64,000 nucleotides of DNA, taken from positions 1,519,001 to 1,583,000 of the forward strand of contig NZ_CP113864.1 of NCBI RefSeq assembly GCF_026914285.1. The letters are read 5' to 3'. How positions within the stretch are numbered: position 1 is the first letter of the stretch; each line of letters opens with the position of its first letter. Source of the stretch: Caldicellulosiruptor naganoensis (GTDB lineage: Bacteria > Bacillota > Thermoanaerobacteria > Caldicellulosiruptorales > Caldicellulosiruptoraceae). This document shows, piece after piece, positions 44,781-63,311 of this stretch. The notes beneath the pieces are model-generated. The model saw only the letters and a program-made list of their open reading frames with translations, ran no database searches and was not told the origin of the DNA. The position numbers and the translations under genes were made by a program.

Positions 44781-46625
<1,845 letters not shown>

Positions 46626-47279
46626 TTAATTTGCATTAGCAACCTTAACAAGGCTGTATCTTATAACCCTGTCTTTTATCTTATAACCTTTTTGGAATTC
46701 TTCAATCACAATGTTCTTACCATACCTTTCATCCACCACATGCATAATAGCATTGTGGAGGTATGGGTCAAACTCTTTATTTAAAGCTTCAATAGGCTCC
46801 ACTCCAAGTTTTGAGAAGATATCATCAATTTGCTTTTTTATCATCTCAAGTCCTCTTAAAAACTCTTCATTTGTATTTTCTGATTCTTTAGCAGAGCTGA
46901 TTGCTCTTTCAAAGTTGTCGACAATAGGAAGGAGTTTTCCTACAACATCAGCAACAACTTCATAGTACATATTTTCCTTGTCCTTTGCAATTCGCTTTTT
47001 GTAGTTGTCAAAGTCAGCAGCAATTCGCTGACATAAGCTTTTGTATTCTTCAACTTCCTTTTCCTTCTCTTCAAGCTGCTTCTTTAACACTTCAATTGGG
47101 TCTTCTTGCTCTTGACTCTGGGTATCTTGCTGAACATTTTCAGTTTGATTATTTTCACTTTGTGGCTCGACATCCTGCTCCTGAGAAACCTCTTTCTCTA
47201 CTGCCTCTTCAGTAGCTGGAGGACTTTCAGAAATATTTGTCTCTTCACTTTTTAACTCTTTGTTTTCCATCTCACACAT
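46626..47279 (-). CDS. grpE: Nucleotide exchange factor GrpE
   Basis: Releases ADP from DnaK. The 217-residue protein has an acidic low-complexity N-terminus of about 60 residues, a long coiled coil (LKKQLEEKEKEVEEYKSL, ADFDNYKKRIAKDKENM) and the GrpE core (KLLPIVDNFERAI, LGVEPIEALNKEFDPYLHNA, FQKGYKIKDRVIRYSLVKVA). Between hrcA and dnaK. Confidence 0.96.
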   Translation of the reverse strand: MCEMENKELKSEETNISESPPATEEAVEKEVSQEQDVEPQSENNQTENVQQDTQSQEQEDPIEVLKKQLEEKEKEVEEYKSLCQRIAADFDNYKKRIAKDKENMYYEVVADVVGKLLPIVDNFERAISSAKESENTNEEFLRGLEMIKKQIDDIFSKLGVEPIEALNKEFDPYLHNAIMHVVDERYGKNIVIEEFQKGYKIKDRVIRYSLVKVANAN

Positions 47280-47300
47280 CTTAAAAAATCACCTCTTTAT

Positions 47301-48332
47301 TTATTCTGTGAAAAGTCTTGTCAAAATATCAGATAGCTCATCGCAGATATAATCAATCAAAGAAACTGTTTGCGAATACTTGAGCCTCTTTGGTCCGATT
47401 ATACCAATTGAACCTGCAATACTGTCTCCTATTCGGTAAGTGGAAAGAATAATGCTGCATTCCTTTAAATCTTCAATTGGGTTTTCTGTACCTATGCGTA
47501 TGGTTATATGGTCGTGCATTGAAGAGTTTATAATCTTTCGCAGCATGTCCTTTTGCTCAAATATATGCAAGAATATCTTAGCTTTTAAAACATCGTTAAA
47601 TTCCGGAAAATCAAACATGTTTTTAATACCGCTTAGAACAACCTCTGTACTGTCTGCTGCACTAATTGTTCTAAGAACACTATCAATGATTGGTGAGAGG
47701 ATTGTCTTGTTCTTGCCCAAACTATTTTCAATATCTAAAACGGTGTTTTCATCAATGTCTTCAAGTCTAAGCCCACTTAGCTTTTCGTTGAGAATGTTAG
47801 AGATATACACAAATTCTTTGTTTTCAATATTCTCAGGTTTGTCCAAAAGTATGTCCTTTACAAGCCCAGTATTTGTGACTAAAATCAATATATATTTTTT
47901 GCTGTCAACTGGCAAAAGTTGTAGATGCTTAATGTAGCTTTTCTTCACATTTGGGGTTGAGAGCACAGCTGTGTAGTTTGTAAGATTTGAAATAATTCTC
48001 GCTATGTTCTCCATGTACTCGTTTATCTCATTAAACTTTACATCCAGCTGAGACCTTATAAATGCAGTTTCTTGCGGTGAAGGTCTTGTGACCTTCATAA
48101 GCTCATCAACATAATATCTATAACCTTTATCAGATGGAATTCTTCCAGCTGAAGTATGTGGTTGCTCTAAATATCCCATTTCTTCTAAGTCAGACATCTC
48201 ATTTCTAATTGTTGCAGAAGAAATACCAACAATATACTTTTTTGCAATTGTGCGTGAGCCCACTGGCTCACCTGTATTTATATAATCATCTATAACCGCC
48301 TGAAGTATTCTTTTCTTTCTTTCATCCAACAT
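47301..48332 (-). CDS. hrcA: Heat-inducible transcription repressor HrcA
   Basis: Repressor binding CIRCE. About 343 residues with an N-terminal winged helix (RILQAVIDDYINTGEPVGSR, SATIRNEMSDLEEMGYLEQP, HTSAGRIPSDKGYRYYVD) and the GAF-like C-terminal domain (IGIIGPKRLKYSQTVSLID). ATG 48332 is taken because AAGG lies 8 bases upstream; a GTG at 48341 falls in that site. First gene of its own regulated operon. Confidence 0.96.
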   Translation of the reverse strand: MLDERKKRILQAVIDDYINTGEPVGSRTIAKKYIVGISSATIRNEMSDLEEMGYLEQPHTSAGRIPSDKGYRYYVDELMKVTRPSPQETAFIRSQLDVKFNEINEYMENIARIISNLTNYTAVLSTPNVKKSYIKHLQLLPVDSKKYILILVTNTGLVKDILLDKPENIENKEFVYISNILNEKLSGLRLEDIDENTVLDIENSLGKNKTILSPIIDSVLRTISAADSTEVVLSGIKNMFDFPEFNDVLKAKIFLHIFEQKDMLRKIINSSMHDHITIRIGTENPIEDLKECSIILSTYRIGDSIAGSIGIIGPKRLKYSQTVSLIDYICDELSDILTRLFTE

Positions 48333-48348
48333 TTTCCTCACCTTACTG

Positions 48349-48415: not shown

Positions 48416-48443
48416 GTAGATTTTTTGACTTTCTTTGACCTTT

Positions 48444-57254: not shown

Positions 57255-57278
57255 GAGAAAATTCTCTCATTCCTTTTT
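57248..57278. terminator. Bidirectional terminator between CBM25-like remnant and fur
   Basis: Perfect 10-bp stem GGAATGAGAG/CTCTCATTCC, 6-base loop, plus-strand tail TTTTT. The stop codons of both convergent genes (57252-57254 plus; 57267-57269 minus) lie inside the stem. Confidence 0.85.
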
Positions 57279-57710
57279 GCACTCTTTGCAAATACCATAG
57301 AATTTTACCATATGATTTATCACTTTAAACCCATTTTTCTTTTCAATCTGTTCTTCCAAAGCCTCCAAAAGGTCGTCTTCTGCCTCTTCTACTTTGCCAC
57401 ATTTTACGCAAATCAGATGGTGATGATTGTGTGACTCTTCACTATTTGAAAGTTCAAATCTTGAACACCCATCGTCAAGATCAATCTTATTGAGTACCTT
57501 CAAATCACTTAAAAGCATTATTGTCCTATAAACTGTTGCAAGTCCTATCTCTGGCATCTTCTGTTTGACTATTTTGTAAATCTCTTCTATACTCAGATGT
57601 TTATCTTGATTATCTAAGATAGAATCAAGAATTATTCTTCTTTGTGTAGTCAACTTATATCCTTTTTGTTTTAGCTGTTCTTTTATCTCTTCTAACTGAT
57701 TTCTATTCAT
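57267..57710 (-). CDS. Fur-family metal-dependent repressor
   Basis: About 147 residues: winged helix (TTQRRIILDSILDN, IGLATVYRTIMLLSDLKVL), regulatory metal site in SHNHHHLICVKCGKVEE, and a structural zinc site from CVKC and C-terminal CKEC. ATG 57710 has GGGGAG 5 bases upstream; the longer frame adds seven unlike residues. The feoA-feoB neighbourhood and a Fur box upstream of feoA favour iron-sensing Fur over Zur or PerR, by context only. Confidence 0.88.
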   Translation of the reverse strand: MNRNQLEEIKEQLKQKGYKLTTQRRIILDSILDNQDKHLSIEEIYKIVKQKMPEIGLATVYRTIMLLSDLKVLNKIDLDDGCSRFELSNSEESHNHHHLICVKCGKVEEAEDDLLEALEEQIEKKNGFKVINHMVKFYGICKECKKE

Positions 57711-57766
57711 AGACGCTCCCCAACTCCATTTAGGCAAGTTGTTAACGTGTGTATTTTATGATATAC

Positions 57767-57796
57767 ATTTTATTCCTAAGTCAACTCATATGTCAA
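57767..57796 (-). promoter_or_regulatory. Probable fur promoter
   Basis: Minus strand TTGACA (57791-57796), 18-base spacer, TAAAAT (57767-57772), between the Cys-rich gene and fur. Confidence 0.55.
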
Positions 57797-57799
57797 TAT

Positions 57800-57937
57800 T
57801 TAAGTAGCGCACTTTTGTTTACAACCTTTGCAATTACCACTGCATTTAAAAGAATCTAAAAGTGAGGAGTTACACCGTGGACATTTCTTGTTTGTAATGT
57901 CAGTTACATAACCACATACAGGACACTTTACCTTCAT
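57800..57937 (-). CDS. Small Cys-rich zinc-ribbon protein of the feo locus (45 residues)
   Basis: An ATG at 57937 with GAGGTG 10 bases upstream opens 45 codons ending at TAA 57800-57802. The protein has eight cysteines: CPVCGYVTD and CPRCNSS form a zinc-ribbon pair, and CSGNCKGCKQKC is a tight C-terminal cluster. It lies 34 bases after feoB and before fur on the same strand. I do not know a name; it may bind iron, zinc or an Fe-S centre for the Feo system. The strong ribosome site and coding look support a real gene. Confidence 0.72.
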   Translation of the reverse strand: MKVKCPVCGYVTDITNKKCPRCNSSLLDSFKCSGNCKGCKQKCAT

Positions 57938-57971
57938 CTTAAAATCACACCTCTTCTCTTTGAAAAATATT

Positions 57972-59798
57972 TTAAGCAATCATAATATGTGCCAAAAGTC
58001 CCCCTACCAATATGGCTATCACAGCAGAAGAAATCCAAACAAAGAGTGAATACCTCAGCCCATTTTCCTTTGTCATCATAGCAAAAGAAGTGATACAAGG
58101 AACAAACAAAGTGGTGGTAACAAGTGCCACAAACATCTGGCTCTTTGTTGTGGGAATTGTCACAAGACCTGCTGCACCATAGTCTCGTCTTATAATGCTC
58201 AGAATAAACACCTCTGTTATTTGCTTTGGAAGTTTTAAAAAACCTGTCACAACAGGCTGGGCAAGGTTTTCGATAACTTTTAGCAGACTTGCTGCATCCA
58301 AAAATCCAAGCAAGAGTGTAGCAACTACAAAAACAGGAAAAGCTTCAACCAAAAATCCTTTAGATTTGTAATAGGTTTTCTTTAAAACGTTAGAAAGTTG
58401 CGGAATCCTTAAAGTAGGAAGATCTATAAACAGTGATGTTGATTCCCCCTTTATAATTCTGCTTAGTATCTTACCTACCACACCAAATATAAATCCAATA
58501 ATTAAAACATAAGCAACAAGGTACCAAAAACCAAGCTTTGAAATCAACCCACTAATAATTCCAAGCTGAGCAGAGCAAGGAATTGTAAGTCCCAGCAAAA
58601 ATATTGTAATAAGTCTTTCTCTCTTTGAACCAAGTATTCTTGTGGTCATTGTTGCCATTGTAACACAACCAAAGCCCAAAATTATAGGAATGATTGATCT
58701 ACCGTTTAAACCTATCTTATTAAACACTCTATCAACAAGTGTTGCAATTCTCGGGAGATATCCACTATCTTCTAAAATGCTCATGAAAAAGTGAAAAGCA
58801 ACAACAAGAGGTAAGAGTAGTCCGAAAAATATTATCGGAAACATAGATAATATTCCATAACTACCAACCAGCAACTTTTGTAAAAACATGTTTGGTATAA
58901 TTCCTTTGATAACCTTTTCTATAAACCCAAAGTAATATTCACCCATCACCGTGTTCATAGTAAAGCCTACAAGCTTTTGGGCAACAAGTACACCCAAAAA
59001 ATAATACATAATATAAAGAGTTGCAACCAAAATAGGAATTCCTGTTATGGGATTTATAAGAATTTGACTCAACTTGTTTTTAAACGCAAGTCGTTTAGAG
59101 TCAAATTTAACAGTTTGGCTATATATCACATCAACATAATTTCGCCTCAGAGCATAAATTTTTTCCTGAAGTTCTGAAACTGATGTTTCAAAAATATTTT
59201 CAGCTTCTGCAAGTTCTCCACAACATAGTTTCTTCCCTTCAGATTCTAAAAGCATATCTAAATTTGGAGTAGGATTGCCCTTTTTAAAAAGATTTTTGTC
59301 TATTGCTTCTTTTAATTCATTAATACCAATTCCTTTGCTGGCTGAAGTAGTGATTACTTCAACACCAAGGTGTTGTTTTAGTTTTTCGACATCAATCTCA
59401 ATATCATTTTTTTTAACCTCGTCAACCATATTAAGTACAACAATAATTTCTTTTTGATAGTCAATAAGCTGCTGGGTTAAAAATAAATCTCTGTCTAAGT
59501 GTACACTATCGATAACATTTATAATTTTCTGAGTATTCAAGACTATATCACGCGTTACTATTTCTTCTTCACTGAACGAAGATATTCCATAAACCCCAGG
59601 AGTATCAACAATGATGTAATCTCTATAGTAACCATAGTTAACATCCACAGTTGTACCCGGATAATTAGAAATCTCTACGTATCTCCCAGTAAGTTTATTA
59701 AAAATAACAGACTTTCCGACATTAGGATTTCCAACAAGAGCTATTACTTCATTTCCTTCTGGAATATTCAGCAGCCGATTTACGCTATGACAGTTCAA
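57972..59798 (-). CDS. feoB: Ferrous iron transporter FeoB
   Basis: About 608 residues: an N-terminal G domain with GNPNVGKSVIFNKLTG (G1), YPGTTVD (G2), DTPGVYG (G3) and NMVDE (G4); a helical GDI-like linker; then a membrane domain of about 8-10 helices with two gate regions (LEDSGYLPRIATLVDR, GFGCVTMATMTTR). TTG 59798 has AAAGGAG 9 bases upstream; the TTG at 59807 directly abuts the site but would add KCLNC. Shorter than the E. coli protein because the C-terminal tail is small. Imports Fe(II). Confidence 0.95.
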   Translation of the reverse strand: MNCHSVNRLLNIPEGNEVIALVGNPNVGKSVIFNKLTGRYVEISNYPGTTVDVNYGYYRDYIIVDTPGVYGISSFSEEEIVTRDIVLNTQKIINVIDSVHLDRDLFLTQQLIDYQKEIIVVLNMVDEVKKNDIEIDVEKLKQHLGVEVITTSASKGIGINELKEAIDKNLFKKGNPTPNLDMLLESEGKKLCCGELAEAENIFETSVSELQEKIYALRRNYVDVIYSQTVKFDSKRLAFKNKLSQILINPITGIPILVATLYIMYYFLGVLVAQKLVGFTMNTVMGEYYFGFIEKVIKGIIPNMFLQKLLVGSYGILSMFPIIFFGLLLPLVVAFHFFMSILEDSGYLPRIATLVDRVFNKIGLNGRSIIPIILGFGCVTMATMTTRILGSKRERLITIFLLGLTIPCSAQLGIISGLISKLGFWYLVAYVLIIGFIFGVVGKILSRIIKGESTSLFIDLPTLRIPQLSNVLKKTYYKSKGFLVEAFPVFVVATLLLGFLDAASLLKVIENLAQPVVTGFLKLPKQITEVFILSIIRRDYGAAGLVTIPTTKSQMFVALVTTTLFVPCITSFAMMTKENGLRYSLFVWISSAVIAILVGGLLAHIMIA

Positions 59799-59822
59799 GC
59801 ATTTCAACTCCTTTCCGTTTTT

Positions 59823-60044
59823 TTACTTCTGAGCCTCTACCTCAATTTCTTTAGCAAAGCCTTGACCTATTGCTATTTCCTGATGGTTTTTACGCAAAAT
59901 AACTGGTCCATTGTTTATTTTTGCAATGCACTTGACCCTGCTCCCTTCATTTATTCCAAATCTTAGAGCATATATCCTTGCATTTTTGCTTTTTATGCTC
60001 TTTATTACAACCTCTTGCCCTCTTGATACCATGTCCAGTGTCAT
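59823..60044 (-). CDS. feoA: Ferrous iron transport protein FeoA
   Basis: A 73-residue SH3-like protein: GQEVVIKSIKSKNARIYALR, FGINEGSRVKCIAKINNGPV, ILRKNHQEIAIGQGFAKEI; normal FeoA size and pattern. GAGGTG lies 7 bases before the ATG. First gene of feoA-feoB, 15-25 bases ahead of feoB, and directly downstream of a Fur-box promoter. Confidence 0.93.
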   Translation of the reverse strand: MTLDMVSRGQEVVIKSIKSKNARIYALRFGINEGSRVKCIAKINNGPVILRKNHQEIAIGQGFAKEIEVEAQK

Positions 60045-60173: not shown

Positions 60174-60289
60174 GCATAGCTCTTAAAATTTTAAATTTAA
60201 AGGCAAAGTTATAGTGGGGGTGGGAAAAGGAATGATTTTTTTAGATTTTTCAGTTATTTTAGGTTAAAATTCGTAAATTTTGACCTTTT

Positions 60290-60318
60290 TTGACCTTGAC
60301 AAAGTTTATATTTATAAT
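60290..60318 (+). promoter_or_regulatory. Promoter of the KaiC-like operon with repeated TTGAC motifs
   Basis: TTGACC (60290-60295), 17-base spacer, perfect TATAAT (60313-60318). Further TTGACC and TTGACA copies sit at 60280-60285 and 60296-60301, so three TTGAC units lie in 22 bases and could form an operator. Confidence 0.55.
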
Positions 60319-60346
60319 TATTTTTATAATTGGGTGAGTGTATAAC

Positions 60347-60369
60347 CCTCCTTTACCTGAAAAAGGAGG
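60347..60369 (+). promoter_or_regulatory. Hairpin covering the ribosome-binding site of the KaiC-like gene
   Basis: CCTCCTTT (60347-60354) is perfectly complementary to AAAGGAGG (60362-60369), 7-base loop. The paired 3' arm is the gene's own Shine-Dalgarno sequence, 12 bases before ATG 60382. Translation would need the stem to open. Confidence 0.6.
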
Positions 60370-60381
60370 TGAAATTAAAAA

Positions 60382-61278
60382 ATGAGCAAGACAAGCAGTG
60401 AAGTACAATCTAGCATAGATGCTGTTAAACTGAAAGAACTATCAAAGTCTGCACCAGAGCTTTTTGGAGTAAAAACAGGAGTTGATGGCATAGACAAGCT
60501 TTTTTACAAAGTTGAATTTTCAAAAGAACTTGGAAAACCTGCCATAAAGCCACTTGGTGGAATTCCGGCGTATTCGGTTATAAACTTAAGTGGAGTTGCT
60601 GACACTGGTAAAAGTCTATTTGCTGAACAGTTTGCCGTGACTCAGGCTAATGAAGGAAATAGCGTTCTTTATATAACAGTTGAAACACCTGCGGAGTTTT
60701 TGTACTCTTCACTTCTTTCGCGTGCTGCTGCTATGAACATTGACAAGTCAAAAGTTGAAGAAAATGTGTACATGCTTGATATTACCAAAGACTTTAATAT
60801 CCGTGGCAACATAAATAACTTTATCAAGACAATTGAAAATGCTGCAACAAGATTTGACATAAAAAATGTAGTAATTGACTCTGTCACTGGATTATTTGAA
60901 TCAAAAGAGATTTATGCACGGGAAATTGTGAGAACTATTTATAACTTCCTAAAAGCAAAAAGGCTCACAACTTTGATGATTTCACAAAAGCGAAGTGGTC
61001 AAGAACACCTGTCCGCTGAGGCTGCAGGCGGATATGCAGTAAGTCACATAGTTGATGGGACAATAGTATTTTCAAAACAGGTTATTATGAACAGGTTTGA
61101 CAGCAGTACGTTTAAAAGACCAATTGGCGATGTTATTCGACTTTTGAGAGTTGACGGCTGTAGAATGTGCGGCCATGATTCCAAAACATATGTATTTGAG
61201 ATTGAGCAAAACGGGCTTATAAAGGTTCTGTACCCACTTGGATATATTGCAGGCCAGCAAAAAGAAGACAAAGAGTAA
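60382..61278 (+). CDS. KaiC/RecA-superfamily ATPase, function unknown
   Basis: A 298-residue single-domain ATPase. Walker A is GVADTGKS (71-78); YITVETPAEF gives a catalytic Glu near 101; Walker B is NVVIDSVTG with Asp at about 166; LTTLMISQKRSGQEH and HIVDGTIVFSK follow, as in KaiC/RadA-type proteins. A C-terminal CRMCGH (Cys 260 and 263) could hold a metal. No kinase-type second KaiC domain, no signal. Related single-domain KaiC proteins occur in archaea and thermophilic bacteria. It forms an operon with the HTH gene 22 bases downstream. Confidence 0.8.
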   Translation: MSKTSSEVQSSIDAVKLKELSKSAPELFGVKTGVDGIDKLFYKVEFSKELGKPAIKPLGGIPAYSVINLSGVADTGKSLFAEQFAVTQANEGNSVLYITVETPAEFLYSSLLSRAAAMNIDKSKVEENVYMLDITKDFNIRGNINNFIKTIENAATRFDIKNVVIDSVTGLFESKEIYAREIVRTIYNFLKAKRLTTLMISQKRSGQEHLSAEAAGGYAVSHIVDGTIVFSKQVIMNRFDSSTFKRPIGDVIRLLRVDGCRMCGHDSKTYVFEIEQNGLIKVLYPLGYIAGQQKEDKE

Positions 61279-61300
61279 ATAAAATATAGAAAAAAAGGGG

Positions 61301-61672
61301 GTGCAGGCCATGAAAAGGATTGATTTAGTTCAGCAAAACATTGACGAGGTTATAAAGCAAATTTTCTCAATTGCCATTGACATCTTAGGTGGACCAAGAA
61401 AGCTTGTTGAGTACAAAAGACTTACATGGCTTGCATCACTGATGGAAGCTATCTTTGTCATTTACCTTCACAATGAAGAAAACAAATCAGCAGATGAGAT
61501 TGCTGAATTTTTGGGAATCAGCACTCAAACAGCCAAAGCAATTTTGCAGAGCAAACCTGAGTATGCAAAGAGCAAACTTGAAAGTGGCGATAGCGCTGAA
61601 AAAACTCATATTGCAGGTGGTATTGCAAAGCTTGCATACAAGACATGGAAGGAAAGCCAAAGTGGAAAATAA
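61301..61672 (+). CDS. Small HTH protein paired with the KaiC-like ATPase
   Basis: A 123-residue protein: an amphipathic N-terminal half (IDEVIKQIFSIAIDILGGPR, LTWLASLMEAIFVIYLHNE), a helix-turn-helix at about 59-80 (SADEIAEFLGISTQTAKAIL) and a C-terminal helix (HIAGGIAKLAYKTWKE). GGGGG lies about 8 bases before the ATG. The tight pairing suggests that it partners or regulates the ATPase; I recall the label KaiC-associated regulatory domain for similar proteins but could not verify it. An IS1182-type element begins six bases after the stop. Confidence 0.7.
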   Translation: MQAMKRIDLVQQNIDEVIKQIFSIAIDILGGPRKLVEYKRLTWLASLMEAIFVIYLHNEENKSADEIAEFLGISTQTAKAILQSKPEYAKSKLESGDSAEKTHIAGGIAKLAYKTWKESQSGK

Positions 61673-61769
61673 AAAACGAGGCTGTCCAAAAACAATAATT
61701 TTTAATAACCAAAATCAAGCATTTGATGGTATTTAATGTTAATATTGAACTATGCAGTAAAAAGCAAGA

Positions 61770-61850: not shown

Positions 61851-63311
61851 CTACTTTAGCTTCACACCCTTCATACCCCTGAGCAGGAATCTCCTAAACC
61901 CTTTATTGTTCTTTATTATCCCAAATACTGTCTCAACTTCTATCTTCCTTTTTTCGTAAATCTCTTCGCCTTCTCTACTTAACAGCCTTTGCCTCACCTC
62001 TTCCTTCAATTTCTCTAACCTCGGTCTTATACTAAATCTCTTCTTCCATCTCTTACCTTTATAACATTTTTCTCTGTGTTCACAACCATTACAAATATCT
62101 TCACATTGATATACCTTCTCATAACTTACAAATCCTCTCTCATTTGCACTTATCTTCGGATATAAGTATTTCACCTTCTTACCAGCAGGACAAATATATG
62201 CATCTTCTTCAGCTATGTACTCCCAGTTCCTTACATTGAAAATATCCTTCTTAAATCTTCTTGTCTGTTCCAAGTCAAATGTGTTATACTTAATGTAGCT
62301 ATTTATGCCACATTCTTTCAGATGAAGGTAGTTTTCTTCAGACCCATAGCCACTGTCTGCTACAATGTTCTTTGGCATGAAACCTGTTATCTTCGTCACA
62401 AGCTCAAGGTGTTCCTTTAGACAGACAGTGTCTGTGGGACTTTGGTGGATGCTAAAACCTATGACAAATCGGTTCTGTGTGCCGATTTGTACATTATACC
62501 CGGGTTTTAGCATCCCATTTTTCATATGGTCATCCTTCATCCTCATAAATGTGGCATCATTGTCTGTTTTTGAAAAACTATTCCTGCCATTTAAGATCTG
62601 CTCATAAGACTCATATTTCTTGAGTCTTAATACGCAGTTGTTTTGGAGAGTTTTTACAAGCTTTTTCACTCTCCTTTCTTTCCTTTTGCTCCCAAAGTTA
62701 GCTTCTGCTATCTTTTGGGAGAGTTCTTCAACTTTTTGTTCAAGCTCTTGGCTATCATAATCAGCTTCTAAATTGACATCCAACTCGCCAAGAATTCTGT
62801 CTTCTTCCTCATTTATCCTCTCTATTTCATTAAGAATTTCTCTTACTTTTTCTCTTAATTTCTTTTTGTATGTTCTTGTACTTCTTGCCCATACAAATGT
62901 ATACTTGTTCGCATTTGCTTCAATCTTTGTCCCGTCAAGGTAGTAATACTCAAAGTTTACATACCCCAGTTTTACAAGAAGTTCAATAACTTGTGCGAAA
63001 ATCTCTTCAATGCAATCACCTATTATCTCTTTTCTGAATCTATTGATAGTTCTGAAATCAGGGGTTTGAAGTTTTGAAAGCCACATAAAGGTTATATTCT
63101 CTTGAAGTGCTTTTGCTATCTTTCTTGAAGAGTATATCCCCTGTATGTAAGCATAGATAAGTACTTTCAAAAGCATCAAAGGATGGTAGCTGGAAGTCCC
63201 ACCACCTTTGTATTTCTCTACTATGGTTGAGATATCTATTTTATCAATGATTTTATCGATTGCTCTTACTAGATGAGTTTGAGGGATAAAGGCTTCAGGG
63301 TCGATTGGCAT
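61851..63311 (-). CDS. IS1182-type transposase, probably N-terminally truncated
   Basis: A 486-residue frame: FIPQTHLVRAIDKIIDKIDI, YHPLMLLKVLIYAYIQGIYSSRKIA, FMWLSKLQTPDFRTINRFR, YYLDGTKIEANANKYTFVW (first Asp), NIVADSGYGSEENY (second Asp), CNGCEHREKCYKGK, and the late EVETVFGIIKNNKGFRRFL with the Glu. Upstream of ATG 63311 the frame stays open as NPNQLI, a normal IS1182 opening, up to the junction with the next element. The native start seems removed, so activity depends on the internal ATG. Confidence 0.85.
   Translation of the reverse strand: MPIDPEAFIPQTHLVRAIDKIIDKIDISTIVEKYKGGGTSSYHPLMLLKVLIYAYIQGIYSSRKIAKALQENITFMWLSKLQTPDFRTINRFRKEIIGDCIEEIFAQVIELLVKLGYVNFEYYYLDGTKIEANANKYTFVWARSTRTYKKKLREKVREILNEIERINEEEDRILGELDVNLEADYDSQELEQKVEELSQKIAEANFGSKRKERRVKKLVKTLQNNCVLRLKKYESYEQILNGRNSFSKTDNDATFMRMKDDHMKNGMLKPGYNVQIGTQNRFVIGFSIHQSPTDTVCLKEHLELVTKITGFMPKNIVADSGYGSEENYLHLKECGINSYIKYNTFDLEQTRRFKKDIFNVRNWEYIAEEDAYICPAGKKVKYLYPKISANERGFVSYEKVYQCEDICNGCEHREKCYKGKRWKKRFSIRPRLEKLKEEVRQRLLSREGEEIYEKRKIEVETVFGIIKNNKGFRRFLLRGMKGVKLK

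Follow-up and report, generated by a model that had tools for sequence, protein, structure and literature searches.

Caldicellulosiruptor naganoensis carries a two-gene operon, encoding a single-domain KaiC-type ATPase and a small helix-turn-helix (HTH) protein, which is strongly predicted to be under heat-shock control by CtsR and whose relatives in separate archaeal and bacterial clades include pairs that directly precede the gene for reverse gyrase. On balance, we consider it probable that the two proteins of this heat-shock operon act together on DNA in the sphere of reverse gyrase and protect the chromosome. Reverse gyrase is a hallmark gene of hyperthermophiles, and its working partners are poorly known. 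A conserved pair with predicted heat-shock control that tracks reverse gyrase in separate lineages, and adjoins it in some, is a concrete candidate for such a partner, and offers a role that can be tested for a KaiC branch catalogued in databases without a function. The host genome carries both the pair and reverse gyrase, and related thermophiles are genetically tractable. The predicted CtsR operator over the −35 box and the reverse gyrase link of the pair are new here; neither was reported in the literature searched, although coverage was sparse for subscription journals, so that this is no proof of novelty.

The ATPase and its HTH partner

The pair was found in a stretch of 64,000 nucleotides that was analysed as a whole (the window). 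The initial annotation had called two open reading frames on the plus strand, and both proved to be real:

60382..61278, plus strand: single-domain KaiC/RecA-fold ATPase of 298 aa, TIGR03878 (419.9 bits against TIGR03878, 170.7 bits against Pfam KaiC PF06745)
61310..61672, plus strand: HTH protein of 120 aa, short form of TIGR03879 (125.1 bits against TIGR03879; all-helical AlphaFold2 model)

The ATPase passed the cut-off of NCBIfam TIGR03878 (thermo_KaiC_2, a hypothetical equivalog; 232.2 bits) over model positions 1–258 of 259. It shared the thermophile distribution of that family and did not differ from it in the features tested. PF06745 matched at eight places in the 2.49 Mb host genome, with the ATPase as the sole strong full-domain match. 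As initially annotated, the Walker A (GVADTGKS) and Walker B (VVIDS) motifs were intact. ATP turnover is likely, since the P-loop, Walker B and a D-G-x-R-x-x-x-H element are kept across the family, in which the residues D258, G259, R261 and H265 are invariant. The CxxC tail that had also been pointed out was present in the window protein (CRMCGHD), but its second cysteine varied among relatives (e.g. CRMSGHS, CRLTGHD). The CxxC is therefore no conserved zinc motif, and a zinc CxxC switch was ruled out as a family feature.

The small protein passed the cut-off of TIGR03879 (near_KaiC_dom; 65.1 bits) over model positions 1–90 of 91 and, as the name of that family implies, adjoins a KaiC gene. 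Its gene had been placed 22 bases downstream of the ATPase gene, with 123 residues, which corresponds to a GTG start at 61301. The gene pair stood, but the ATG at 61310, 31 bases after the ATPase gene and giving 120 aa, is the more likely start, because one ortholog (L012) has no start codon upstream of that ATG. The AlphaFold2 model comprised seven helices (mean pLDDT 86.7), and helices 61–68 and 72–79 lay in HTH position, consistent with the fold first proposed. No general Pfam HTH family scored above its cut-off (best: Sigma70_r4_2, E 7e-4). Foldseek returned no significant whole-fold match for the short-form model (best E 0.5, the top entries being mostly DNA-binding HTH proteins) and nothing significant for a long-form model, and a search of solved structures gave only a repeat-protein entry, matched along 25 residues, and a weak, unrelated match. 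The motifs LGGxxxL...LTWL and HxAGGxAKLA were kept around the HTH-like core. The 56 TIGR03879 relatives fell into two size classes, 47 long forms (approximately 195–250 aa, with an extra C-terminal domain) and nine short forms of approximately 120 aa, to which the window protein belongs. The C-terminal domain of the long form resembled DUF2795 only below the cut-off.

Calling the pair an undescribed system, as the initial annotation did, was thus too strong. With a full-length TIGR03878 member and a TIGR03879 member, it combines catalogued families without assigned function rather than new families.

Both genes stood side by side in each of the 12 members of the genus. When the GTDB collection was scanned, 165 relatives were confirmed. 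Neighbourhoods were counted in 80 loci, drawn from many archaeal and bacterial phyla and for the most part from thermophiles. These loci were the best-scoring ones and mostly contigs of metagenome-assembled genomes (MAGs), so the adjacency rates are not from an unbiased sample. An iterated profile built from the HTH proteins of the genus detected the HTH gene in 56 of the 80 loci. Among the 75 informative loci, which were not broken off by a contig end, the HTH gene was directly adjacent to the ATPase gene in 51 (48 downstream, three upstream), followed after a gap of 0.7–1.3 kb in five, and was not found nearby in 19. The idea of a dedicated ATPase/HTH pair was thus borne out, with adjacency kept across archaea and bacteria. 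When genomes without a nearby HTH gene were searched, 15 of 16 had one TIGR03879 gene elsewhere. Five distant genomes of the host phylum had the ATPase, and no HTH protein above the cut-off was found in them. Thermotoga maritima and Methanocaldococcus jannaschii had a TIGR03879 protein and reverse gyrase and no TIGR03878 match, which suggests that TIGR03879 proteins may have partners in a different KaiC branch. In three archaeal loci (L042, L043, L045), a gene of approximately 353 aa that looked like a Sua5/YrdC-type tRNA-modification gene lay between the ATPase and HTH genes. Three WOR-3/Hydrothermota loci (L095, L101, L113) had the HTH gene followed by a conserved protein of approximately 575 aa and an apparently membrane-bound one of approximately 284 aa.

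In a maximum-likelihood (ML) tree, the window ATPase grouped with Geothermarchaeota proteins (support 89/56), nested in a better supported archaeal set (97/86) and apart from other ATPases of the host phylum. This placement suggests, with modest support, a transfer between domains. An origin from a mobile element or phage was rejected, as there was no relative in viral contigs and a single plasmid match, to a 0.9 Mb Thermomicrobium plasmid on which the HTH gene was also next to the ATPase gene.

Predicted heat-shock control by CtsR

The upstream region of the operon and a second site in the window contained the following elements:

60279..60295, minus strand: predicted CtsR operator, GGTCAAA-AAA-GGTCAAA (plus strand: TTTGACC-TTT-TTTGACC), exact match to RGTCAAANANRGTCAAA
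60290..60318, plus strand: predicted sigma-70 type promoter, TTGACC-17-TATAAT, 11 of 12 consensus positions, with the −35 box overlapping the operator
48424..48440, minus strand: second CtsR box of the window and member of the same predicted regulon, before hrcA-grpE-dnaK (44781–48341, minus strand)

We take the CtsR operator consensus to be RGTCAAANANRGTCAAA. The box before the ATPase gene was kept in 12 of 12 genus members (five exact, seven with one mismatch), in a surrounding upstream region that had diverged. A genome-wide pattern search gave five exact boxes, and none with the reversed pattern as a control. The other four preceded ctsR-mcsA-mcsB-clpC (one), hsp20-clpB (two) and hrcA-grpE-dnaK (one); these gene names were read from translations, except for CtsR, which was identified by profile match (PF05848, E 5e-35) and is encoded once in the host genome. 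The two exact boxes within the window compare with 0.09 expected even when one mismatch is allowed. The exact box over the −35 element, its conservation throughout the genus, the company of the regulon and the presence of CtsR in the genome led us to predict strongly that the operon is under heat-shock control. Operator sequence, position over the −35 box, the CtsR gene and the clpC/clpB/hsp20/dnaK company are all shared with the CtsR regulon of Gram-positive bacteria. It had been proposed that the HTH protein binds the TTGAC repeats in this region. We replaced this proposal, as the repeats form the genus-conserved, predicted CtsR heptad operator and the −35 box that it overlaps, and they were dropped as a candidate operator of the HTH protein itself. 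The exact box before hrcA-grpE-dnaK, an observation apart, suggests dual control of the DnaK operon by HrcA and CtsR.

Upstream of relatives outside the genus, neither CIRCE nor CtsR motifs were found. To our knowledge, textbook descriptions of the CtsR regulon do not include a KaiC/HTH pair. In a literature search that mostly covered sources outside subscription journals, no paper named the genus together with KaiC, and the genus appeared with CtsR only in one unrelated review. A counterpart by description exists in Pyrococcus furiosus, in which the consecutively numbered PF1931 (KaiC domain) and PF1932 (predicted regulator) were reported as targets of Phr that are strongly upregulated in heat shock (PMC10746257). 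Their control by the archaeal Phr differs from that by CtsR predicted here, and by analogy their induction may support an independent heat link for a KaiC/regulator pair.

Linkage and co-occurrence with reverse gyrase

Reverse gyrase was encoded directly after the HTH gene in 11 of the 55 loci with enough sequence, and did not adjoin it in the other 44. The linked loci belonged to Thermoplasmatota (five), an unassigned archaeon (one) and Campylobacterota (five); one of the linked reverse gyrases was scored against TIGR01054 and reached 1151 bits. They were well separated in the ML tree of the ATPase, whose well-supported branches force at least five label changes, so the linkage does not go back to one recent transfer. 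Judging from the tree, it has either more than one origin, or an ancient one followed by frequent losses.

The ATPase and reverse gyrase also tended to occur in the same genomes. In a panel of 399 genomes of the host phylum, 13 had the ATPase, 10 had reverse gyrase above the cut-off and 10 had both; among 249 Campylobacterota genomes, the corresponding numbers were 10, 12 and 10. Naive hypergeometric P values, which ignore phylogeny, were approximately 1e-17 for the host phylum (1e-6 when counted by genus) and 3e-16 for Campylobacterota. Shared thermophily could account for part of this co-occurrence. Reverse gyrase was present in 37 of the 47 ATPase-bearing genomes, mostly MAGs, that were reached via the loci. 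Exceptions were found in both directions. Three genomes (G150, G257, G413) had the ATPase and no reverse gyrase, and reverse gyrase occurred without the ATPase in two genomes of the Campylobacterota panel (G495, G506) and in the controls T. maritima, M. jannaschii and Sulfolobus acidocaldarius. Loss of reverse gyrase looked more frequent with the short HTH form, as the enzyme was absent from five of nine such genomes and from five of the 38 others, in a small sample that consisted mostly of MAGs.

In the host genome, reverse gyrase lies approximately 120 kb from the pair, and the genome-wide pattern search found no exact CtsR box upstream of it. The reverse gyrase gene rgy of Nautilia profundicola was reported to be induced more than 100-fold by heat (PMC2628731).

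Proposed role and alternatives

The predicted heat-shock switch and the occasional adjacency to reverse gyrase point to a heat-protection role on DNA and not to a clock. We infer the following mechanism. At normal temperature, CtsR bound on the −35 box would repress the operon. Heating would release CtsR, and the operon would be turned on in the host together with ClpC, ClpB, Hsp20 and DnaK. The ATPase and its dedicated DNA-binding HTH partner would bind each other and form, upon heating, a complex that works on DNA in an ATP-dependent manner. In alliance with reverse gyrase, this complex would help to protect, re-pair or keep the topology of the heat-stressed chromosome. More tentatively, TIGR03878 and TIGR03879 may make up a heat-induced partner system of reverse gyrase, which loads, steers or regulates this enzyme or the heat-stressed nucleoid, has stayed together in both archaea and bacteria, and is wired into the heat-shock regulator of the host, i.e. 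CtsR here and perhaps Phr in Pyrococcus.

The main rival to an ATP-dependent complex on DNA is a transcriptional switch, in which the ATPase would sense the energy or nucleotide state, oligomerise and control the HTH protein as a regulator of heat genes, perhaps with reverse gyrase among them. The initial annotation had leaned this way; it recognised the dedicated ATPase/HTH pair but missed the heat-shock control and the reverse gyrase link. A small HTH protein with its own ATPase partner fits such a switch, as do the 11 loci in which its gene precedes reverse gyrase and the NCBIfam label of TIGR03879 as a probable regulatory domain. But the HTH protein had no significant Foldseek match to a known regulator fold, no known sensor domain accompanied the ATPase and no operator for the HTH protein was found here, and we regard a switch as possible yet somewhat doubtful. 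A role as a RadA-paralog-like recombination mediator, which would modulate RecA/RadA filaments when heat causes damage, the HTH protein serving as DNA loader, would be comparable to the role proposed for archaeal aRadC proteins, which affect recombination (PMC4080772). The RecA-fold similarity is consistent with it, including the solved-structure match of the ATPase to the related single-domain SSO2452 (2w0m; E 2e-8, a weak similarity). The ATPase sequence is nearer to KaiC proteins than to RadA, though, and neither recA nor radA was noticed among the most frequent neighbouring genes, which makes this role unlikely.

It is more unlikely still that the genes are a thermophile housekeeping pair without a special tie to reverse gyrase, the linkage reflecting only that both belong to life at high temperature and that operons are assembled by chance. 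The confounding of co-occurrence with thermophily and the 44 of 55 loci not beside reverse gyrase would agree with this, but the same three-gene order recurs in separate archaeal and bacterial clades, and thermophily alone does not entail heat-shock control. Finally, only the KaiC-fold ATPase speaks for a KaiABC-like circadian clock or other timer, and the chance of one is negligible. The ATPase shares the RecA-like KaiC fold with clock KaiC, but has one ATPase stretch where clock KaiC has two domains (CI, CII). It scored 37.5 bits against the clock KaiC model TIGR02655 (cut-off 546), far below its TIGR03878 score, and KaiB (PF07689) had no match in the host genome. The single domain and the lack of KaiB ruled out the clock reading.

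The ATPase-HTH operon is flanked by genes of other kinds. Just upstream, on the minus strand (57267–60044), lie divergent feoA-feoB-like and Fur-family genes, an ordinary iron-uptake cluster. Just downstream, a transposase gene is located at 61851–63311 on the minus strand, and GAGGCTGTCCAAAAA at 61678, a few bases past the HTH stop codon, may be an insertion sequence end. The same opening recurs in a protein that the host genome encodes slightly downstream of its reverse gyrase gene (L145:9133-10500).
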